Shown here one piece after another: positions 31,159 to 54,744 of a stretch of 64,000 bases of DNA. The notes beneath the pieces are model-generated. The model made no database searches, was not told the DNA's origin, and was given only the letters and a program-made list of their open reading frames with translations. The first letter of the stretch is position 1. Each line of letters begins with the position of its first letter. The DNA is from Rhodospirillaceae bacterium (GTDB lineage Bacteria > Pseudomonadota > Alphaproteobacteria > Bin65), in the NCBI GenBank assembly GCA_026709535.1, contig JAPOST010000161.1, positions 1 to 64,000 on the forward strand. Reading direction: 5' to 3'. The position numbers were made by a program, and so were the translations under genes.

Positions 31159-33021
31159 TCACGCCGCCGACCCAATCCGGCTGCGTGCAGCCTTTACTTC
31201 CTCGCGTTGCATTTCGAGAATCAGCCAGCGGTCCTCTGACTCGGCCAGTTCTGCCCGCGCAGTTTCCAGGCGCCCAGCGGACTCTGAAAATTGACCCGGG
31301 TCTCTGGTAAACAGCGCCTGATCCGAGAGTTCTGCTTCCAGTTCAGCGATCTCGCGTTCAAGCACCGTCATTCGTTCCGACAACTGATCCAATTCACGCT
31401 GTTCCTTATAACTCAATCGTGTTGTTGCCTTGGGCGGCTCTGGCGACGAAGATGACTTCAACCTTTTGGCTGGCGTCGCCTGCAGCATGCGGGCTCTGGA
31501 TGGCGCTTCCTTCCGCTGGGAAAGGTGGTCGGTATAACCACCGGCATATTCCCGGATATGTCCGTCACCCTCCAGGACAATCGTGCTGCTGACAGTTTTG
31601 TCCAAGAAGTCGCGATCATGGCTGACCAAGAGTACGGTTCCCGGATATTCCGAAAGCAGGTCCTGCAATAAATCCAGCGTGTCCATGTCCAAGTCATTGG
31701 TGGGTTCGTCCAAGACCAGCAGATCGCTTGGTGTTGCAAGAATCTTGGCCAGCATCAGGCGATTGCGCTGACCACCCGACAAGGTCGCCACGCGCGCTTC
31801 CGCTTCCCGGGGATCGAAGAGCCAGTCTTTCAGATACCCCCGGACATGCCTGACTTGATCGCCGACCTGCACCAGATCGCCGCCACTTTCGCACAAGGTG
31901 CTTTTGAGCGTTTCCTTGGGGTTGAGTAGGCTGCGTTGCTGGTCGAAATAGGCAGTGGTCAGAGCCTTACCGACCCTAACGTGACCAGAGTCAGGCCGAA
32001 TCTCGCCAATCAGCAGCTTCAGAAGCGTCGTCTTGCCCGTACCGTTGGCACCAATAATGCCGATGCGGTCGCCGCGGCGGATGCGCGTTGAAAACTTGCT
32101 GACAACGGGCCGCTTCTTCGTTTCGCCCTGGAAGCTCTTTGAGATTTCCCGGGCCTCGACAACAAGCTTGCTGCGCGCTTGTCCATCGTCGATCTTCGCT
32201 CGGATCCGACCGGTCTCGCTCAACAAGGCTGCGCGGGAAGCTCGCAAGACCTCGAGTTTTCGCAGACGACCCTGGTTCCGCCGCCGCCGGGCTGTTACGC
32301 CGCGCAGAAGCCAGCGCGCCTCCTCCCGCAGCCTCGCGTCGAGTTTCCGCGCTTCCCGTGCCTCGTTTTCGAGCACCTGCTCACACCAGTCATCGAATGC
32401 CCCAAAGCCGTGGTTCGCGCCCCGCAGGTGACCGTTTTGCAACCACAGGATCCTATTCGTAACGTTGGCGAGAAATGTCCGGTCGTGACTGATCACCAGC
32501 GCAGCGCCCTTGAACTGCCGCATGGCGTTTTCGAGCCATTGGACTGTGCTGATGTCCAGATGGTTAGTTGGTTCGTCCAGCAACATCAGGTCCGGCCGTG
32601 CGACAAAGACCTGAGCCAGCGCCGCTCGTCGTTGTTCGCCGCCAGACAAGGTCGTGACGTCCCGCGCGCCGTCCAAGTCGAGCGCCGAGAGCATTGCCTC
32701 CACTGCATGGCCCTGGTTGTCTTGGGCCGCGCCGCGCGCCATGCTGACGGAAACCCAATCAAAAACGGATGTGGCCGCTTTCATTTTGGGCTGCTGGGCC
32801 AGGTAGGCGATTGACAGGCTCGGCTCTTCATAGCGCTCGCCGGCATCGAGATCCAGTTCGCCGGCGACCAACTTCATCAAAGTGGATTTGCCACAGCCGT
32901 TTCGACCGACCAGACTCACCATGTCACCGCGCGCAAGATGCAGTGTCAATCTTTCAAATAGCGGAGTGCCGCCGAATCCGATTGACGCGTTGCGGAGAGA
33001 CAAAAAGGGGGGTCGGGCCAT
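31159..33021 (-). CDS. uup: ABC-F ATPase, Uup type
   Basis: Soluble tandem-ATPase protein of the ABC-F family, which acts on ribosomes or, for Uup, also affects DNA transposition and branched intermediates. 620 residues with two nucleotide-binding domains: GRNGCGKSTLMKL with TLSGGEQRRAALA, and GANGTGKTTLLKL with TLSGGQRNRLMLA, each followed by LLDEPTNHLD or VLDEPTNDLD. A basic C-terminal extension with a coiled coil (LDQLSERMTVLEREIAELEA) distinguishes Uup from EttA-type paralogues. There are no membrane segments. The tree position is not checked. Confidence 0.92.
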   Translation of the reverse strand: MARPPFLSLRNASIGFGGTPLFERLTLHLARGDMVSLVGRNGCGKSTLMKLVAGELDLDAGERYEEPSLSIAYLAQQPKMKAATSVFDWVSVSMARGAAQDNQGHAVEAMLSALDLDGARDVTTLSGGEQRRAALAQVFVARPDLMLLDEPTNHLDISTVQWLENAMRQFKGAALVISHDRTFLANVTNRILWLQNGHLRGANHGFGAFDDWCEQVLENEAREARKLDARLREEARWLLRGVTARRRRNQGRLRKLEVLRASRAALLSETGRIRAKIDDGQARSKLVVEAREISKSFQGETKKRPVVSKFSTRIRRGDRIGIIGANGTGKTTLLKLLIGEIRPDSGHVRVGKALTTAYFDQQRSLLNPKETLKSTLCESGGDLVQVGDQVRHVRGYLKDWLFDPREAEARVATLSGGQRNRLMLAKILATPSDLLVLDEPTNDLDMDTLDLLQDLLSEYPGTVLLVSHDRDFLDKTVSSTIVLEGDGHIREYAGGYTDHLSQRKEAPSRARMLQATPAKRLKSSSSPEPPKATTRLSYKEQRELDQLSERMTVLEREIAELEAELSDQALFTRDPGQFSESAGRLETARAELAESEDRWLILEMQREEVKAARSRIGSAA

Positions 33022-45158: not shown

Positions 45159-45187
45159 TGATCCAGATCGGGCCAGCCTGCGTACCA
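45159..45187 (+). promoter_or_regulatory. Candidate RpoE-type promoter upstream of the ECF sigma gene
   Basis: TGATCC at 45159-45164, an 18-base spacer, then TACCA. This is close to the known promoter of the RpoE-ChrR group (TGATCC, N18, TAAGA in Rhodobacter). The same -35 and spacing occur before the rpoH gene at 51575. The -10 keeps only TA, so this copy is less certain; its position fits autoregulation. Confidence 0.5.
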
Positions 45188-45328
45188 TTGCAGACGCATA
45201 CAAGAATCGGCGACATCATGGCGACCCTGCAAACGCTAAATTGTTCCGCAAAGCTGTTCTACCGCAGGTCATCCGTTCGACCACTGCCATTGCGCGGGGA
45301 TGCGGCGCGCCAGGGATGGCGACGAAGC

Positions 45329-45892
45329 GTGACCAGCCCTGACGCCGAACGCTTGCTGATCGCGGTCGCACAACATCGCGACGATCAGGCGTTCGCGAAT
45401 TTGTTCAGCGAATTTGCGCCGCGGATCAAGGCCTTTATGCTCAAGGGCGGGGCGGATGGCGCGGTTGCCGAAGAACTTGCGCAAGAGACCATGGTTCAGG
45501 TCTGGCGTCGCGCATCAAGCTACGATCCCGTGAAGGCGTCGGCGTCGACATGGATCTTCACGATTGCCCGGAACAAGCGGATCGATCGACTTCGCAGAGA
45601 GAGCCGTCCGACCCTTGATCCTGAACTGTATGTATCCAGTCAACCGCAACCCACGAGCCCTTTCGACACGGTCGAAGCGCACCAAAAAAAAGCACTGCTG
45701 CATCAATTTGTGGCGCACCTTTCCACCGAGCAGATCGAGGTTGTGGAGAAGGCCTTCTACCAAGACAAACCCCACTCGGCGATTGCGGAAGATCTCGATT
45801 TGCCGCTGGGTACCGTCAAATCTCGCATTCGGCTGGCACTTGGCCGCCTGAGGATGTTGATAGAGAAACAAGGCATGGAGGAGAACAGCTAA
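45329..45892 (+). CDS. rpoE: ECF sigma factor, RpoE of the RpoE-ChrR (ECF11) type
   Basis: Sigma factor of about 187 residues controlling a stress regulon. Region 2: FSEFAPRIKAFMLKGGADGA, ELAQETMVQVWRRASSYDP and STWIFTIARNKRIDRLRRE; region 4: SAIAEDLDLPLGTVKSRIRL. These match the RpoE that responds to singlet oxygen in Rhodobacter, and the next gene encodes its ChrR-like anti-sigma. The GTG at 45329 gives the family length and a family-like N-terminus. An ATG at 45218 would add 37 residues with no family resemblance; neither start has a strong ribosome site. Stop and chrR start touch at 45892. Confidence 0.92.
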   Translation: MTSPDAERLLIAVAQHRDDQAFANLFSEFAPRIKAFMLKGGADGAVAEELAQETMVQVWRRASSYDPVKASASTWIFTIARNKRIDRLRRESRPTLDPELYVSSQPQPTSPFDTVEAHQKKALLHQFVAHLSTEQIEVVEKAFYQDKPHSAIAEDLDLPLGTVKSRIRLALGRLRMLIEKQGMEENS

Positions 45893-46569
45893 TGATCCAC
45901 CACCGCCCGCCTCACGATATCTTGGTGGATTATGCTACCGGCGCCCTTGCACAGCCGCTTGCCATCGCGGTAGCAACGCATGCTGAGCTTTGTCCCGAAA
46001 GCCTGGCCGAGATCGCTGATATCGAAGCTGTCGGCGGTGTGATGCTGGCCTCGCTGGAACCAGTCAAAATGTCTGAAAACGCGCTCGACCGGGTCATGGC
46101 TCTGGTTGGCGAAATGGACAACCGCATCCCGGATACCGAGATCGATGCTGGTCCAGACATCTCAATGCGAGATGAAATCCGGAAGTCTGCATTGCCGCCG
46201 GCGATTCGGGCAACGCTGGACGGCAAGACAGATACCATCGCGTGGCAGCGCAGGGGTCCGGTCATCGAGTCAACCGTGCTGGACTGCGATCTGGACAATT
46301 ACGAAGTCCGGCTGTTCCGTATCAAGGCCGGCAAAACGGTGCCACAGCATACCCATGAAGGGCTGGAAATCACCGTTTGTCTGACTGGCGGATATACTGA
46401 TGGCCGGGATCGATATGCGCGTGGCGATTTTCAGGTCGCCGATCCAATGGTGAATCACCAACCAGTTGCAGACAATGACGAGCATTGCATTGTCCTGACG
46501 GTCTTCGAGAAAGACATCCGACTGACCAGCCCGCTGGGCCGGCTGATTAATCCCTTCGTCCGACTCTGA
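45892..46569 (+). CDS. chrR: ChrR-like zinc-binding anti-sigma factor with cupin domain
   Basis: Two-domain regulator, 225 residues. The N-terminal anti-sigma domain would hold the adjacent ECF sigma factor inactive. The C-terminal cupin (about residues 115-215) carries the metal ligands HTHEGLE and, later, NHQP, needed in Rhodobacter ChrR for the singlet-oxygen response. In the anti-sigma zinc motif (His-x3-Cys-x2-Cys) the sequence is HAELCPES: histidine 30 and cysteine 34 are present, but the last cysteine is serine 37 (codon AGC). N-terminal histidines (3, 4, 8) are available. The change could weaken zinc binding or sigma binding. Confidence 0.93.
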   Translation: MIHHRPPHDILVDYATGALAQPLAIAVATHAELCPESLAEIADIEAVGGVMLASLEPVKMSENALDRVMALVGEMDNRIPDTEIDAGPDISMRDEIRKSALPPAIRATLDGKTDTIAWQRRGPVIESTVLDCDLDNYEVRLFRIKAGKTVPQHTHEGLEITVCLTGGYTDGRDRYARGDFQVADPMVNHQPVADNDEHCIVLTVFEKDIRLTSPLGRLINPFVRL

Positions 46570-46571
46570 TC

Positions 46572-47357
46572 TTGCTCGCACTCGGGTTCCAAACGGCTTG
46601 GATTGTCGGGGCCAGTACCGGCATCGGCGCCGAACTGGCGCGGCGCCTGGCCGCGAACGGTTGCCGTGTTGTCGTCTCGGCTCGGCAAACTGGAAAACTT
46701 GAAGATCTTGCCGCCGAGGCGTCATCAGATCGCATGACAGCCGTGACAGCCGATGTGACAGACGAAGCATCAATCACTGAAGCATGGGCAGCGGCGCGCC
46801 AGACCCTGCAGGGTCCTCCCGACCTGTTGGTGTTCAATGCCGGCCTGTTCTCACCTGTGGATGTGCGGAAGTTTTCTGCTGCCCTGTTCCGGCAGCACAT
46901 TGAGGTCAACCTGATGGGCGCCGCGCGGGTCCTTGAACACGTGTTGCCAGACATGATTGCGCGGGGTGACGGCCGCATTGTACTCGTAGGCTCTGTCTCT
47001 GGCTATCGGGGTCTGCCCAAGGCTGCGGCCTACGGAGCTTCCAAGGCCGCCCTGATTCATCTGGCGGAAACGCTGCGACTCGAAATGGCCCCGGCGGGAA
47101 TCATGGTGCAGATTGTCAATCCGGGGTTTATCGACACGCCGATGACGGCGCAAAACGACTTTCCCATGCCGCATCTGATGACAATCGAACGCGCCGTAGA
47201 TGCCTTTATTGCCGGTCTGAGAAGCAGTTCTTTCGAGATTACTTTTCCCAAGCGCTTCACGTGGCAACTCAAGCTGCTTCGTCTGCTGCCGTATTGGCTG
47301 TATTTTCGGATCATCCGCCGCATCACGCGACCGGACCGAGGAGCTAAGTCGGTCTGA
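46572..47357 (+). CDS. Short-chain dehydrogenase/reductase of the RpoE regulon type
   Basis: 261-residue SDR: cofactor motif IVGASTGIGAELARRLAANG, NAG-type VFNAGLFSP, catalytic serine in GSVSGYRG and YGASK (Tyr-x3-Lys). It begins two bases after the chrR stop, apparently with TTG 46572, so it is in the rpoE-chrR operon. A similar dehydrogenase accompanies the RpoE-controlled genes of Rhodobacter. The basic C-terminus is membrane-binding-like (LKLLRLLPYWLYFRIIRRIT). Its last codons overlap the convergent DUF3833 gene by 14 bases. Confidence 0.9.
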   Translation: MLALGFQTAWIVGASTGIGAELARRLAANGCRVVVSARQTGKLEDLAAEASSDRMTAVTADVTDEASITEAWAAARQTLQGPPDLLVFNAGLFSPVDVRKFSAALFRQHIEVNLMGAARVLEHVLPDMIARGDGRIVLVGSVSGYRGLPKAAAYGASKAALIHLAETLRLEMAPAGIMVQIVNPGFIDTPMTAQNDFPMPHLMTIERAVDAFIAGLRSSSFEITFPKRFTWQLKLLRLLPYWLYFRIIRRITRPDRGAKSV

Positions 47358-47862
47358 ACACTGCCGTCACGCGGCCCACCAGAATGCCGAACTTGCGGGC
47401 CTGAGAAACGTTCAGCAATTCGCCGCTCGGTCGCAGATACAAGCGGTCATCAAACGACAATACGATTTTTCTGGGTCCGATAGCCACAGCTATGCGATAG
47501 CGCCACCGAACTTCATTCTGCAGCGTTTCTGCTTTCGCAGTGCCGATGACATCTTTAGCGGTTGCAACCATCCGATCATGAGATTGTCGTCGAATGCGCC
47601 ATTCCCGTTCTTCAACCCGTCCGTCGTCATATCGGAAATCTTCTGCAAGGCAGAATACGTCGCCCTCCCAGCGACCGTGCATCGTCATGTTAAAGCCGAG
47701 ACGCTTACGGCCGAATCGGTCGTGGAAGAGACCCGAGCCTTCTATCCGCCGGTTGAAATATTTGAACGTGTCCAGCCCCCCGGACAAACTGGTATTGGCG
47801 CCCGCTCCGTCAGCGTCGGGTGCACGGGTCAGAAGCGTGGTTGTGGAGTGTGTCAGGGTCAA
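47344..47862 (-). CDS. DUF3833 family protein
   Basis: 172 residues matching the DUF3833 pattern (LDTFKYFNRRIEGSGLFHDR, NMTMHGRWEGDVFCLAEDFR, YDDGRVEEREWRI, LSFDDRLYLRPSGELLNVSQ). Function unknown. Members are usually encoded beside cyclopropane synthase, DUF1365 and oxidase genes, as here. Many homologues are lipoproteins; no lipobox is visible from this start, so the true start might differ or the anchor may be lost. It lies 82 bases after the cfa gene on the same strand and overlaps the SDR gene tail-to-tail. Confidence 0.88.
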   Translation of the reverse strand: MTLTHSTTTLLTRAPDADGAGANTSLSGGLDTFKYFNRRIEGSGLFHDRFGRKRLGFNMTMHGRWEGDVFCLAEDFRYDDGRVEEREWRIRRQSHDRMVATAKDVIGTAKAETLQNEVRWRYRIAVAIGPRKIVLSFDDRLYLRPSGELLNVSQARKFGILVGRVTAVFRPT

Positions 47863-47944
47863 GATCTTGATCGCGTGCTGGTTTCAGAACTGTCTAGATT
47901 TTACGTTCGCTCGGCCGATTCGGATCACCCCGACCTGATGCTGC

Positions 47945-49147
47945 TCAAACCCGCAGCAACCCGATTTGTCGGACGTCGATATTGCCCGCTCGGAATCCAC
48001 CTTCGCAGTAAGCGAGATAAAGTGTCCACAGGCGCTTGAACCGTTCGTCGAAACCTTGGCTGGTCAGTTTCGGCCATGCTGTCAAGAACCGCTGGCGCCA
48101 TTCTGAAAGCGTGCGGGCGTAGTGCTGGCCAAAGCCGTCATCGCCAGTAACCTTTAGGCCGGCCTTGCGGAACTGCTCTGCCAATGCCGTGCGGCTCGGC
48201 AGCATGCCGCCTGGAAACACGTGGCGTTGAATGAAATCCACCGATTGCCGATAGCGCGGGAACAGCATGTCATCAATCGTGATGATCTGAAGGGCGGCTC
48301 GACCGCCTGGCGCCAAGACATCACGTATCTTGTCAAAATAGGGCGACCAGTATTTCTCACCGACCGCTTCGAACATTTCGATCGAGGTGACGTGGTCGTA
48401 CTTCTCCGCCACATCGCGATAGTCCCGGAACTGGACATCGACCTTGTCGCCAAGGCTTTCCTTCTGGACGCGCGCGGCCGCATAGTCATGTTGCTCCTTC
48501 GAAATGGTCAACGCCGTGACGTTCACGCCGCGCTCTCGGGCGGCGACGGCTGCAAACCCGCCCCAACCGCAGCCGATTTCAAGGACGCGGTCACCCTCCT
48601 GGGCGCCAGTGATGTCCAGCAGGCGGCGGTACTTGTTTTCTTGACCAGCCTCCAACGGCTCATCTGCACCTTCAAAAACGGCGGATGAATAGGTCATCGT
48701 AGGATCCAGCCACGCCTCGTAGAATGCGTTACCCAAATCGTAATGAGCCGCGATGTTTCGTCTGCTGCCTGTCGGCGTGTTCTGTCTCCGCCGATGCTGC
48801 AGCTTTGCTGTGAATCGGGACCAAGTCTGGAGCAACGTCCAGTCTTTCGAGGGCTCTTGGTGGAGAGCACCCAATTCAATGGCAGCCGCCAGGTCGGGGC
48901 TGTCCCAATCACCATCCAAATAGGCTTCGGCGAGGCCCAATGCGCCACCGAACAGCAGTCGGCGCACCGATCGCCAGCGGTGGACTTTCAGATAAGCGTC
49001 CGGGCCGGGCTCGGTCCCGATCAGGCGACTCAGGCGTCCGTCAGGCCATTCTACCGCAAAGGTGCCGTAGCGGATCTTGCCGCGCAACCATGCCGTGAAG
49101 GCGCGCCGTGCGCCGAAAGGAATGGATTCAGAACTTGCGTGTGTCAT
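47945..49147 (-). CDS. Cyclopropane-fatty-acyl-phospholipid synthase family methyltransferase
   Basis: SAM-dependent methyltransferase of about 400 residues acting on unsaturated fatty acyl chains of membrane lipids. Marks: NIAAHYDLGNAFYEAWLDPT with MTYSSAVF, SAM site VLEIGCGWGGFAAVAARE, TSIEMFEAVGEKYW, and FIQRHVFPGGMLPS. RpoE-controlled homologues in Rhodobacter modify lipids under singlet oxygen, either as cyclopropane synthase or as the methylase of furan fatty acid synthesis; which applies here is open. The start ATG 49147 overlaps the DUF1365 gene by 20 bases. Confidence 0.93.
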   Translation of the reverse strand: MTHASSESIPFGARRAFTAWLRGKIRYGTFAVEWPDGRLSRLIGTEPGPDAYLKVHRWRSVRRLLFGGALGLAEAYLDGDWDSPDLAAAIELGALHQEPSKDWTLLQTWSRFTAKLQHRRRQNTPTGSRRNIAAHYDLGNAFYEAWLDPTMTYSSAVFEGADEPLEAGQENKYRRLLDITGAQEGDRVLEIGCGWGGFAAVAARERGVNVTALTISKEQHDYAAARVQKESLGDKVDVQFRDYRDVAEKYDHVTSIEMFEAVGEKYWSPYFDKIRDVLAPGGRAALQIITIDDMLFPRYRQSVDFIQRHVFPGGMLPSRTALAEQFRKAGLKVTGDDGFGQHYARTLSEWRQRFLTAWPKLTSQGFDERFKRLWTLYLAYCEGGFRAGNIDVRQIGLLRV

Positions 49148-49931
49148 GGTCCTGTCTACCAAACCGGCCAGCGCGTTCGCGAAGGGACAAGCGCTTGCGC
49201 GAGCGAAACGGTGCGCCCTTGATCCAAAGTTTGAGGGCCTCCCAGTAGATCCCCAAGGTTACCTTCAATGTCATCAACGGCTGGCGCAAGAACATGCCTA
49301 GCAGGGCACGGTCGTTCAAATCCGCACGCTTGCCCGAAAGGGTCGCGACCATCAGGTTGGCACCGTCCGGGCCGGTTTCGCGAATAGTCACGGCAATCCG
49401 GTCTGCCGGAGCCGACAATCGGAACTCGTAGCGCGCCGCCATTCCGATAAACGGTGACACGTAAAACTCCTTGTCGGCGTGGTGCGGTGCAAACCTGTCC
49501 TGCCCGCCTGACACTTCAACGGGGATCACATAGGCGTGCCGCCCGCCGAAGGTATTATGCACTTCATAAATGATTGCCCCAATCCGCCCGTCTGCATCGG
49601 CGCAATACCATACCGAAAGCGGATTGAACGCATAACCCAACATCCTGGGAAGGCATAACAGGTAGAGACGCGCGCCGAATTCCGCAAGGCCGGCTTGGTC
49701 AAGCCGGTCTTCCGCCCACTGGCGCAAGGGAGTCTCATCTCGATGGCCGTGGTCGCGGCGACGTACTGAAAAGGGGCGTGATCGATCGACGCCGAACAAG
49801 CGCAAGCGGCGGTCGAGAATTGGCAACTCATCAATGTCGAGCAGGCAATAGGTAACCCGATAGGCCAACTTGTGGGCGGGACCGTGCTTGCGTCTGTGCG
49901 TGACACGGCAGTGATACAATGCCGAAATCAT
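49128..49931 (-). CDS. DUF1365 family protein
   Basis: 267 residues with the DUF1365 pattern: YHCRVTHRRKHGPAHKLAYR at the N-terminus, RLYLLCLPRMLGYAFNPLSV followed by WYC, VHNTFGGRHAYVIPV and ADKEFYVSPFIGMAARYEFR. The biochemical function is not established. The family is nearly always next to a COG2907 oxidase and a cyclopropane synthase-like enzyme, which suggests a shared lipid-modification pathway. ATGA overlap with the upstream oxidase gene. Confidence 0.92.
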   Translation of the reverse strand: MISALYHCRVTHRRKHGPAHKLAYRVTYCLLDIDELPILDRRLRLFGVDRSRPFSVRRRDHGHRDETPLRQWAEDRLDQAGLAEFGARLYLLCLPRMLGYAFNPLSVWYCADADGRIGAIIYEVHNTFGGRHAYVIPVEVSGGQDRFAPHHADKEFYVSPFIGMAARYEFRLSAPADRIAVTIRETGPDGANLMVATLSGKRADLNDRALLGMFLRQPLMTLKVTLGIYWEALKLWIKGAPFRSRKRLSLRERAGRFGRQDHDTRKF

Positions 49932-51310
49932 GCGGTCGATGCCGAGTCGACTGGTCGGGTCCGATCGCCGTCAAAAGGCGCCCGAAATCCCATGCTCTTG
50001 ACAACAGCAAGACCCGCGTTCAGGCCGTCTTCATGAAAGCCATAGCCGCACCATGCGCCAGCGAACCACACATGCCGGCGGCCTTGGATCAAGGGAAGCC
50101 GCTCCTGAGCAGCGACGGCTGCCTGATCGAACTGTGGATGGCGAAAGTCGATTTCATCAACGGTGCATTCCTCGCGCGGTGGTGAGGGCGGGTTGAGGGA
50201 CACAAAGATATCCTGTGACTTCTCGATACCCTGGAGACGGTTCAGCCAGTAGGTCACCGACGTTGGCTGATCCTGCCGATCCGTCTCTGCCCAACTGCGA
50301 CGATCAACGACGTTCCAACTAGACCAGACGGCCTTGCGTCGGGGCATCAGCGACGAGTCGGTATGCAAGAAGGTCCGGTTTGTCTCGAAGGGGAAAGCAC
50401 CCAGAATTGCTGTTTCATCCGCATCCGCATCGCTAAGCAGTTGCAGCGCAACATCCGCGTGAACCGCCAGAATCGCGTCGTCAAAGACCTGCGCGTCGCC
50501 CGCTGCCGGAAGAACCGTGACGCCCTCGGCATCGCGGCGCAACGACCGGATGGGCGTTTGAAGACGTACAGTGCCCGAGAACTGGTTGAGAATGGCTTCG
50601 ACATAGCACCGGCTCTTGCCTGCAACAGTGAGCCATTGAGGTCGACCTTTGAGGTCGAGCAGACCGTGATTCCGGAAAAAATTGCCAAGCGTTTTTGCTG
50701 GAAAACCCAGGATAGACCGGGGCGAACTGGACCAAATTGCCGCCGCCATAGGCAGGATATGCCAGTCGATGACGGGCCGACCGTAGCTGCCGGCCACCAG
50801 ATACGCGCCCAGGGTCACCTCGCCCAGTCGTCGGGCGGCGGTATCCTCCCGGAGGCTACGATAGAACCGAAGCAGGTCGCGAAGCATGCCGAGATAGGAC
50901 GGTCGGATCAAATTCCTGTGCTGGGCGAACAACTGTCGCCAATGGCGCGAGCATGCGTATTCGACGTCGGCCCATTCCAGCGACACGCTAAACGACATGT
51001 CGCTCGGCTGGACAGCGACATCCAGGATATCGAAGAGGCGAGTAAGGTTTGGATAGGTACGACGGTTAAAGACCATGAAGCCTGTGTCGACCGCCAGAGG
51101 TGCGCCGCCTGAACCAACGTCTGGCACGGTGACGGTTCGGGCGTGTCCGCCCACGGTCGCGCCGGCCTCGAACAAGGTTACATCGGCTTGGTGATCCGCC
51201 ATCCAGGCTGCGGACAACCCTGCGATGCCTCCGCCTATGACGGCTATCCGTCTCCGCCCGCGTCGGATAGCTGGCTGGCGATGGGGAATAGCTGCGATGC
51301 CGTCGAACAT
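49928..51310 (-). CDS. FAD/NAD(P)-binding amine oxidase-like protein (COG2907)
   Basis: Flavoprotein of 460 residues with the dinucleotide-binding motif IAVIGGGIAGLSAAWMADHQ, GATVGGHARTVTVPD, DTGFMVFNRRTYPNL and the C-terminal FAD segment HVWFAGAWCGYGFHEDGLNA. COG2907 proteins resemble carotenoid and fatty acyl desaturases. In Rhodobacter an RpoE-controlled member acts on methylated fatty acids in furan fatty acid synthesis (from memory), so the same is plausible here. The ATG at 51310 is preferred to the TTG at 51334. First gene of the minus-strand oxidase-DUF1365-cfa-DUF3833 operon. Confidence 0.92.
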   Translation of the reverse strand: MFDGIAAIPHRQPAIRRGRRRIAVIGGGIAGLSAAWMADHQADVTLFEAGATVGGHARTVTVPDVGSGGAPLAVDTGFMVFNRRTYPNLTRLFDILDVAVQPSDMSFSVSLEWADVEYACSRHWRQLFAQHRNLIRPSYLGMLRDLLRFYRSLREDTAARRLGEVTLGAYLVAGSYGRPVIDWHILPMAAAIWSSSPRSILGFPAKTLGNFFRNHGLLDLKGRPQWLTVAGKSRCYVEAILNQFSGTVRLQTPIRSLRRDAEGVTVLPAAGDAQVFDDAILAVHADVALQLLSDADADETAILGAFPFETNRTFLHTDSSLMPRRKAVWSSWNVVDRRSWAETDRQDQPTSVTYWLNRLQGIEKSQDIFVSLNPPSPPREECTVDEIDFRHPQFDQAAVAAQERLPLIQGRRHVWFAGAWCGYGFHEDGLNAGLAVVKSMGFRAPFDGDRTRPVDSASTA

Positions 51311-51652
51311 GAAATTCTTTCTGCGGTCTTCCAAGAGATACGCCAGTGCCGCGTTTTTGGATTGCCCATTTTTAAAGTGCGAATCTCATACGAAAAAGAT
51401 CCGAACGTTGCGGCTGTGCTACCTTCGGCGGAGCATCGTGATTTGAGACCTTGTTGCGTTCGAGAAGATCCAGGGACGTTTCTTCATGGAGCGCAGCGCG
51501 GAGACCGTCAGCTCTTTTCGGTAATTGATGGCGCAGAGGGCGGCCGCCGGCTGTGTTGAAGGCGGGGGCAACAGTGATCCGTTCGGCGTCGGCCAGCGTA
51601 ATACTTTTGCAGTTACCCCAGCGCGGCAAGCCAAGGCCGATCGGAGCGTCAT
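51311..51652. other. Divergent regulatory region between oxidase operon and rpoH
   Basis: 340 bases. The rpoH side holds the TGATCC-N18-TAATA promoter. On the minus strand no exact TGATCC-N18-TAA was found in front of the oxidase gene; a CGGATC at 51406-51401 is the nearest resemblance and lacks a matching -10. Short frames here show no family pattern. Confidence 0.5.
51575..51603 (+). promoter_or_regulatory. RpoE-type promoter of the rpoH gene
   Basis: TGATCC at 51575-51580, exactly 18 bases, then TAATA at 51599-51603. This agrees with the consensus of the RpoE that is paired with ChrR (TGATCC, N18, TAAGA). Transcription would begin near 51610, leaving a leader of about 45 bases before the rpoH ATG at 51653. 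Confidence 0.75.
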
Positions 51653-52540
51653 ATGTCTGTGGTTTCACGAAGCCCGGTTCGTTTTCTGTCCGAAGAAGAA
51701 GAACGCAACATCCTGAAACGCTGGACCCGACATCGAGACAGCACTGCATTGGACCGGCTGATCGACTCGCACCGTCCCTTGGTGTTGAAACTCGCGACCC
51801 GCTACCGTACGGGCGCACTATCCCTTGCCGATCTGGTGCAGGAAGGCTTCGTTGGTCTGATGGAGGCAGCCAACCGTTTCGATACGGATCGTGAAGTCCG
51901 GTTTGCGACTTACGCTCAATGGTGGATCCGCAGCACCATGCAGGAATTCGTCCTGCGTAACATGTCGGCGGTCCGCTCCGTCACCTCATCACGTCAGAAG
52001 TCGCTCATGTTCACGCTACGCAAGATGGCGGATGACCCGGAAACCCCTCCGCCCGATGCAGAGACCAAGGCCGAACTTGCTCAGCGATTCGGCGTATCTT
52101 TGGCGGCGGTAGACCGAATGTCGATGCGCATGAACGCCTTTGACCAGTCTCTGGATGCCGTGATCGGTCCGTCCGGCGATCTGGTCCTGAAGGACCTGAT
52201 CGCCGATGAGGGACCTACGCCGGAAGATACGCTCATGGAAACAGATGAGCGACTGCAGAAACGGGCCTGGCTGAAATCCGCACTAGCGAACCTTCCAGAC
52301 CGAGAGCGGCGCATCATCGAAGGGCGCCACCTGGGCGACGGGAAATTGTTGTTGCGAGAACTGGGCGACGAGATGGGCGTCAGCAAGGAGCGGGTGCGTC
52401 AGCTCGAAGCGCGCGCCATGGAGACGTTGCAAAAGACCGCTAAATGCGACCTCGCCGCTGGCGGCCTGTTGCGATCGACTGCCTCCACGAAGCGAATTGT
52501 GCCGGTGAACCGGACGGGCTGCCCGGGGCAACTGGTTTGA
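51653..52540 (+). CDS. rpoH: RNA polymerase sigma factor, RpoH type (RpoH2-like)
   Basis: Sigma-32 family protein, 295 residues. Region 1.2/2.1 LVLKLATRYRTGALSLADLV, region 2.4 VRFATYAQWWIRSTMQEFVL, the RpoH box region SSRQKSLMFTLRKM, region 3, and region 4.2 GVSKERVRQLEARAMETLQK. In Rhodobacter, RpoH2 is transcribed by RpoE and extends the singlet-oxygen response; the TGATCC-N18-TAATA promoter just upstream gives the same wiring here. A GGAGCG ribosome site precedes the ATG. The HAD gene follows after seven bases. Confidence 0.93.
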   Translation: MSVVSRSPVRFLSEEEERNILKRWTRHRDSTALDRLIDSHRPLVLKLATRYRTGALSLADLVQEGFVGLMEAANRFDTDREVRFATYAQWWIRSTMQEFVLRNMSAVRSVTSSRQKSLMFTLRKMADDPETPPPDAETKAELAQRFGVSLAAVDRMSMRMNAFDQSLDAVIGPSGDLVLKDLIADEGPTPEDTLMETDERLQKRAWLKSALANLPDRERRIIEGRHLGDGKLLLRELGDEMGVSKERVRQLEARAMETLQKTAKCDLAAGGLLRSTASTKRIVPVNRTGCPGQLV

Positions 52541-53166: not shown

Positions 53167-54744
53167 ATGATTGACGGGACGCCATTCCTCCGGCTATGGG
53201 CCCGCCGACGTCGCCAACAACTAGCCGCCATGTCGCCTGTCGAGACGCAACGGAACCAGTTGCTGAAGCTGGTGCACGCGGCGCGACGAACCGTCTTCGG
53301 CAAGACGCACCGTTTTGACATCATTCGATCGGTTGGGGATTTCCAGTCCGCCGTGCCGATCCGAGATTACGATGCGTATCAGGATGATATATGGAAAGAC
53401 CGCTTTCCAGATCTGACAGACACTGGCTGGCCCGGTCCGGTTGTCTGGTATGCCGTGACCAGCGGCACCACCCGCGACGTGACCAAGTACATTCCCGTGA
53501 CTCAAGCAATGATCCAGTCGAACAAGCAAGCGGTACTGGACATGTATGCCCATCATCTGGCTGCAAAGCCGGACAGCAGGGTTTTTGGCGGCTTGAACTT
53601 CATGCTGGGTGGCAGCACAGATTTGACAACCTTGGCGCCGGGCATTCGCGCCGGCGACCTCTCCGGCATTGCCGCTGCGACCATGCCTGCATGGGTGCGC
53701 CCGCGCATCTATCCACCGCAGGAACTAGCGCTGGAAGCGGATTGGGAACGCAAGATCAACCTGATGGCCAGAGGAAGTGTGAACAAGGACATCAGGTCGA
53801 TTGCCGGCACACCAAGTTGGTTGTTGTTGTTGTTTGACAAATTGGCGGACTTTCGCCCGGAGGTTGATCGCGACGTGACCCGTATATGGCCCAATCTCGA
53901 CCTCGTCGTCCATGGTGGTGTGCGCTTCGACCCCTACAAGCCGCAATTCGATACTTGGGTCCGTGGCCGGGACGTTGATTACCGCGAGGCTTACGCGGCC
54001 AGCGAAGGGTTCATCGCGAGCAGCGACCGAGGCTTTGGTCAAGGCATGCGGCTCAATCTGGATACAGGCCTTTTTTTTGAGTTTATTCCATTGGATGACT
54101 TGGGCAGTGCAACGCCGACGCGCCACTGGATTGGCAATGTGGAACCGGGGATCGACTACGCAATCGTATTGTCGACCTGCGCCGGATTGTGGGGCTGGTT
54201 GATCGGTGATACAGTACGGATTGTCGAACGGGATCCGCCGCGGTTGCTCGTCTCCGGTCGGACCAGTTACATGATGTCGGCTTTCGGGGAACACCTGATC
54301 GGTGACGAAATCGACAGGGCTGTTATCCACGCCGCGGAGACGGCCGGCCTCCGGGTGACAGACTATGCCATGGGCGCAGTATTTCCGACGGCCGACCGAC
54401 CGCTGGGCGGGCATCGCTACTTGATTGAATTTGCTTCCGGCATTCCGGCAGAAACCGTCGTCGAGGCGATTGGGAGAGCGATCGATGGCAATCTGGCGGA
54501 AGGTAACGCGGATTATGCCGCGCACCGATCTGGCGGCTACGGAATGCTGGCACCAGTGGTGTTCGCCAAGCCGCCCGGTTTCTTTGCCGCCTGGATGAAA
54601 AGTCGAGGCAAGTTGGGAGGTCAGAACAAGGTACCCCGCGTGATAAACGACACAGTCGTTTTTGACGAATTGGCGGCATTCGCGTTCGGGGAGCCGGAAT
54701 GCAGGTCAGTTGCGGGAGAGGATGACACGAAGGGTCCTGGTTGA
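53167..54744 (+). CDS. GH3 auxin-responsive promoter family protein
   Basis: Acyl-adenylating enzyme of the GH3 fold, 525 residues, related to plant amidosynthetases that conjugate amino acids to jasmonate or auxin. Family segments: PIRDYDAYQDDIWKDRF, the ATP-binding TSGTTRDVTKYIPVT, YREAYAASEGFIAS, FFEFIPLDD, and the C-terminal-domain GDTVRIVERDPPRLLVSGRT. Bacterial members are scarcely studied and the acyl substrate is unknown. No partner such as an acyl carrier protein or thiolase is encoded nearby. ATG 53167 gives a normal length. Confidence 0.9.
   Translation: MIDGTPFLRLWARRRRQQLAAMSPVETQRNQLLKLVHAARRTVFGKTHRFDIIRSVGDFQSAVPIRDYDAYQDDIWKDRFPDLTDTGWPGPVVWYAVTSGTTRDVTKYIPVTQAMIQSNKQAVLDMYAHHLAAKPDSRVFGGLNFMLGGSTDLTTLAPGIRAGDLSGIAAATMPAWVRPRIYPPQELALEADWERKINLMARGSVNKDIRSIAGTPSWLLLLFDKLADFRPEVDRDVTRIWPNLDLVVHGGVRFDPYKPQFDTWVRGRDVDYREAYAASEGFIASSDRGFGQGMRLNLDTGLFFEFIPLDDLGSATPTRHWIGNVEPGIDYAIVLSTCAGLWGWLIGDTVRIVERDPPRLLVSGRTSYMMSAFGEHLIGDEIDRAVIHAAETAGLRVTDYAMGAVFPTADRPLGGHRYLIEFASGIPAETVVEAIGRAIDGNLAEGNADYAAHRSGGYGMLAPVVFAKPPGFFAAWMKSRGKLGGQNKVPRVINDTVVFDELAAFAFGEPECRSVAGEDDTKGPG

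Follow-up and report, generated by a model that had tools for sequence, protein, structure and literature searches.

Gene content of the rpoE-chrR cluster

The 64-kb stretch of DNA analysed here, hereafter the window, harbours an ECF11 sigma factor gene, rpoE (45218..45892, forward strand), whose product has RpoE of R. sphaeroides (PDB 2q1z, chain A) as its best solved relative, with an E-value of 1.5e-43. The longest rpoE reading frame opens at GTG 45158, inside the promoter. The first in-frame ATG past the predicted transcription start is at 45218, and later starts, for example GTG 45329, are conceivable. The gene is directly followed by chrR (45892..46569, forward strand), which encodes an anti-sigma factor with a C-terminal cupin domain. 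Its product scores 180.8 bits against TIGR02451 (cut-off 124.5) and matches PDB 2z2s (chain B) with an E-value of 6.1e-27. Two features of ECF11 systems, a ChrR-type anti-sigma gene directly after the sigma gene and an autoregulatory TGATCC-N16-CGTA element before it, are both present.

In the cupin domain of ChrR, the zinc ligands H153, H155, E159 and H189 are invariant in the alignment, and correspond to the His, His, Glu and His residues with described zinc-ligand roles (PMC6852236). The His-x3-Cys-x2-Cys zinc motif of the anti-sigma domain is incomplete in the window protein, which reads HAELCPES in the alignment, with Ser in place of the last Cys. The residue equivalent to the zinc ligand Cys38 (R. 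sphaeroides numbering) is Ser in the window and in genome G007, Thr in G010 and Cys in G008. The ChrR proteins of two further loci, L064 and L072, lack the Cys35 equivalent too. By its profile match the window protein is a member of the ChrR family, an assignment that does not extend to an intact ZAS zinc site, which the ChrR profile does not demand. As the Cys38 equivalent is missing, the inhibition of RpoE could differ.

Downstream of chrR lies a short-chain dehydrogenase (SDR) gene (46572..47357, forward strand; PF00106) that is likely co-transcribed with it. Four genes on the reverse strand follow, encoding a DUF3833 protein (47344..47862; PF12915), a cyclopropane-fatty-acid-synthase (CFA)-type methyltransferase (47945..49162; PF02353), a DUF1365 protein (49128..49931; PF07103) and an FAD-dependent amine-oxidase-type protein (49928..51334; PF01593). 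The true start of the FAD gene is likely ATG 51310, judging from the MFDG start that it has in common with G008. The cluster ends with an rpoH-family sigma gene (51653..52540, forward strand), apparently a divergent paralog, whose leader contains a GGAG ribosome-binding site. Genes of the CFA, DUF1365, FAD-oxidoreductase and SDR types, candidates for an ECF11 core regulon, are present, although the FAD/DUF1365/CFA operon is preceded by only a degenerate site. Just downstream of the cluster (53167-54744) is a gene for a GH3-type protein, which scores 570 bits against the lyso-ornithine lipid synthetase model OlsH (cut-off 620).

Predicted promoter elements in the cluster

The first-pass annotation had proposed TGATCC-N18-TA promoters before both sigma genes. 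Both are present on the forward strand, before rpoE at 45159-45184 as TGATCC-AGATCGGGCCAGCCTGCG-TACCAT, and before rpoH at 51575-51600 as TGATCC-GTTCGGCGTCGGCCAGCG-TAATAC. The list was incomplete, in that a third perfect site (47927-) and a degenerate fourth one (51364-) had been overlooked. The promoter type it named fits the published ECF11 element, but the −10 core is CGTA rather than TAA: CG precedes the TA in all three perfect sites of the cluster, which therefore read TGATCC-N16-CGTA.

Using a PWM trained without the window, we ranked the sites within the 64 kb. The three perfect sites received the top three scores, namely the predicted promoters of rpoE-chrR (45159..45184, forward strand; 24.3), of the DUF3833 gene (47902..47927, reverse strand; 21.8) and of rpoH (51575..51600, forward strand; 20.0). 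The TA of the last lies 52 nt upstream of the rpoH ATG (51653). Transcription is predicted to start about 9-10 nt past the A of CGTA, at 45193-45194 and 51609-51610, in agreement with the earlier estimates of 45193 and 51610.

The fourth site, CAATCC-N16-CGTA (51339..51364, reverse strand), has a PWM score of 9.8, the highest minus-strand score in its intergenic region, and is located 29 nt upstream of the ATG at which the FAD-oxidoreductase gene likely starts. Perfect sites occupy the matching position in G007 (L050 6801-) and G008 (L052 15196-). It is probably a degenerate fourth promoter, putatively driving the FAD/DUF1365/CFA operon.

Conservation and rarity of the element

We compared 31 class-wide chrR loci, the window included, each with 900 nt or more of upstream sequence. 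Of these, 27 have the exact TGATCC-N16-CGTA before rpoE, and each of the other spacings is found in 0-1 loci. In addition, 80 named loci were gathered with an RpoE alignment, 73 with a downstream ChrR-type ORF and seven without ChrR. The element is exact in 43 of the 73 ChrR-bearing loci and has one mismatch in nine (52/73 in total); the other 21 have no site within the stretch searched, and neither has any of the seven loci lacking ChrR. Moreover, the base following TGATCC is a purine in all of the relatives' sites in two samples (29/29 and 52/52), which tightens the earlier proposed consensus to TGATCCR-N15-CGTA.

The genome (3.67 Mb) contains 79 copies of the bare pattern TGATCC-N18-TA, five of them within the window. 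The first-pass annotation had held that a motif common at random positions genome-wide would speak against its proposal; for the motif as written, this would half apply. In addition, a genome scan with the pattern it suggested, TGATCC-N18-TAA, would overlook the rpoE site, which reads TACCA. With a spacing of 16 to 20, TGATCC-N-TA has 13 matches in the window, against a shuffle mean of 4.4. The bare pattern is not distinctive and constitutes weak evidence; what makes a site informative is CG ahead of the TA. Scans with the bare pattern and with TGATCC-N16-19-TAWNNT were discarded, their matches being too frequent.

TGATCC-N16-CGTA is found 10 times in the genome, and the strict form TGATCCR-N15-CGTA only four times in 3.67 Mb, three of them in the 6.4-kb cluster (45159+, 47927- and 51575+). 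At the genome rate, simple arithmetic gives an expectation of ~0.007 strict sites per 6.5 kb. The fourth strict site, C58:16441, lies within predicted genes: a 315-aa ORF contains it in antisense orientation, and a 222-aa ORF on its own strand overlaps it. As for the seven TGATCC-N16-CGTA matches outside the cluster, a purine follows TGATCC in only one; five were set aside as lying inside ORFs on either strand, and two as having no suitably placed ORF of at least 100 aa in the flanking stretch examined.

The rpoH gene of the cluster

The genome encodes several sigma-32-type factors. The rpoH product of the window falls below the cut-offs of three curated RpoH/sigma-32 models, scoring 254 against PRK07500 (cut-off 315), 221 against TIGR02392 (323) and 218 against PRK06596 (241). 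A gene on contig C121 passes the RpoH model (359.9; cut-off 323.1), and a gene on C34 practically reaches the PRK07500 cut-off, with 314.1 versus 315 (for a sequence trimmed to the matched part). In the phylogenetic tree, the window rpoH and its relatives in G010 and G008 form a separate clade (support 100/99) on long branches, apart from the canonical clades. No ECF11 site is found within 400 nt of the C34 gene and its family relatives, and the window rpoH is preceded by the element at 51575, its presumed promoter. The window rpoH thus seems to be a divergent paralog, distinct from the genome's canonical RpoHII.

The rpoH relative in G010, which belongs to another genus, shares 56% identity and resides on a different contig from rpoE. 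It has a perfect site of its own (C195:3995-4020), 49 nt upstream of the matched frame. The relative in G314 has a site with a PWM score of 20.4, and the element also precedes many rpoH genes across the class. In G008 no good site faces the rpoH relative; the perfect site there faces the FAD operon.

A predicted RpoE-to-RpoH cascade

We consider it about 90% probable that the cluster gathers an ECF11 (RpoE-ChrR) regulon for oxidative stress in one place. Directly visible in the DNA are the gene content, the elements themselves, where they lie, how strictly their spacing is kept across the class and how nearly they are restricted to the cluster. That the RpoE of the window recognizes them, is released from ChrR and responds to singlet oxygen or organic peroxides is proposed by analogy with characterised relatives. 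ChrR would keep RpoE inactive until an oxidant signal, singlet oxygen or organic peroxides, arrives. The freed RpoE would then recognize TGATCC-N16-CGTA and transcribe its own operon (autoregulation), the rpoH-family sigma gene (a cascade) and the DUF3833 gene, and probably, via the degenerate site, the FAD-oxidoreductase/DUF1365/CFA operon. The autoregulated cascade suggested in the first-pass annotation is thus well supported at the sequence level by the ECF11 match, by the 27 of 31 loci and by the many rpoH genes across the class. Since the published element recurs with the same spacing before rpoE and rpoH class-wide, autoregulation plus a cascade from RpoE to RpoH is the best reading.

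The sites might instead be a product of chance, two copies of a pattern frequent in a GATC-rich genome having been picked by eye near sigma genes. The 79 genomic copies would fit this, as would the bare patterns at 53510+, inside the GH3-type gene, and at 31385+, which have no evident promoter role. Nevertheless, demanding both CG before the TA and a purine after TGATCC leaves four sites, three of them in the cluster and correctly oriented upstream of genes, and relatives with 40-48% ChrR identity retain the element at the same place. Class-wide conservation already contradicts chance, which is a most improbable explanation. It is also conceivable, yet improbable, that the sites serve autoregulation and the core regulon while rpoH is expressed mainly from another promoter, with the cascade minor or absent. 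The intergenic region before rpoH exceeds 300 nt and leaves space for further promoters, and G008 has no good rpoH-directed site; on the other side stand the perfect site at 51575, the ribosome-binding site before the rpoH ATG and the good counterpart sites in G010 and G314.

A third alternative concerns the identity of the sigma factor: the window gene could be a fast-evolving true RpoHII ortholog and the C34 gene an odd paralog, so that nothing would depart from the R. sphaeroides scheme. The closest curated model of the window gene is the sigma-32 factor PRK07500, albeit below the cut-off; an ECF11 site sits at an RpoHII-type gene in many other genomes; and the long branches render the placement unsure. 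Against this, the C34 product scores higher against PRK07500 (314 versus 254), its close relatives occur in the genus and in family members whether ChrR-bearing or not, close relatives of the window gene are found in ChrR-bearing genomes only, and the window gene forms a separate clade (100/99) with the G010 and G008 genes. We regard this alternative as unlikely, though it retains real weight, and prefer the divergent paralog.

Comparison with known ECF11 systems

Among the known systems closest to the predicted one is σE (RpoE)-ChrR of R. sphaeroides, which combines an rpoE-chrR operon, the promoter TGATCC(N15)GCGTA (PMC5036791), autoregulation and direct control of an rpoH-family gene, in the form of an RpoE-dependent rpoHII cascade for singlet oxygen (PMC6852236). 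Lipid-related core targets in R. sphaeroides are the furan fatty acid genes (PMC6852236); their candidate counterparts here are the CFA-type, DUF1365, FAD and SDR genes. The systems differ in that the rpoH of the window lies inside the cluster and is apparently a divergent paralog, ChrR lacks the Cys38 equivalent, and the strict sites are confined to one cluster.

In P. syringae, the ECF11 pair PSPTO_1043/1042 has TGATCC-N16-CGTA promoters seen by ChIP-seq, autoregulation and shared core genes; by contrast, its site set is larger, and the parts of that report consulted note no rpoH target (PMC5507510). RpoE2-ChrR of S. oneidensis also uses promoters with TGATCC and CGTA, whose starts were mapped by experiment (PMC4336711), but its regulon includes pgpD, Lon and photolyase, and rpoH is listed there under another sigma factor, RpoE.

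Start codons of rpoE in related loci

The rpoE start codons of relatives were compared in the loci L170-L249 and L039-L081, samples that include related species, so that the counts are not independent. Among the 52 named loci that have a site, 35 show an in-frame ATG or GTG 9-10 nt past the A of CGTA; in the first sample the figure is 13 of 24, and neither set has one out of frame. The rpoE frame is open from the promoter to about region 2 in 49/52 (other frames, 3 and 20) and 22/24 (5 and 5). A start codon at the predicted transcription start would imply that, in many ECF11 loci and species, the rpoE mRNA is leaderless and the protein carries an N-terminal extension of low conservation. In B. 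japonicum ecfF, which belongs to another ECF group, overlap of the mapped start with the annotated ATG was attributed to mis-annotation of the start codon (PMC3420878); the in-frame bias speaks against that for ECF11. We found no report of leaderless ECF11 rpoE in the open-access literature. The rpoE of the window departs from this arrangement: ACG stands in frame at +10, and its first ATG comes at +34.

Distribution of the cluster genes

In six genomes of the same genus there is no chrR, no rpoH of the cluster type and no close relative of the CFA and FAD genes found here; other genera of the family possess them. Being absent together in the genus and present in other genera, the set (window 45159-52540) behaves as one module. 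A plausible, though unproven, scenario, to which we give even odds, is that in this lineage the singlet-oxygen sigma factor has switched its target, away from the canonical RpoHII and towards a separate RpoH paralog that evolves fast and comes and goes together with rpoE-chrR as a single module. If true, the rewired module would be a self-contained two-sigma cassette.

The predicted cascade is a known and largely ordinary system, its unusual part being the divergent heat-shock-type sigma factor apparently wired into it. In this lineage, the sequence alone makes an RpoE-ChrR response and its predicted sigma cascade recognizable, and a divergent RpoH that appears to travel with the RpoE-ChrR switch may offer a testable case of cascade rewiring.
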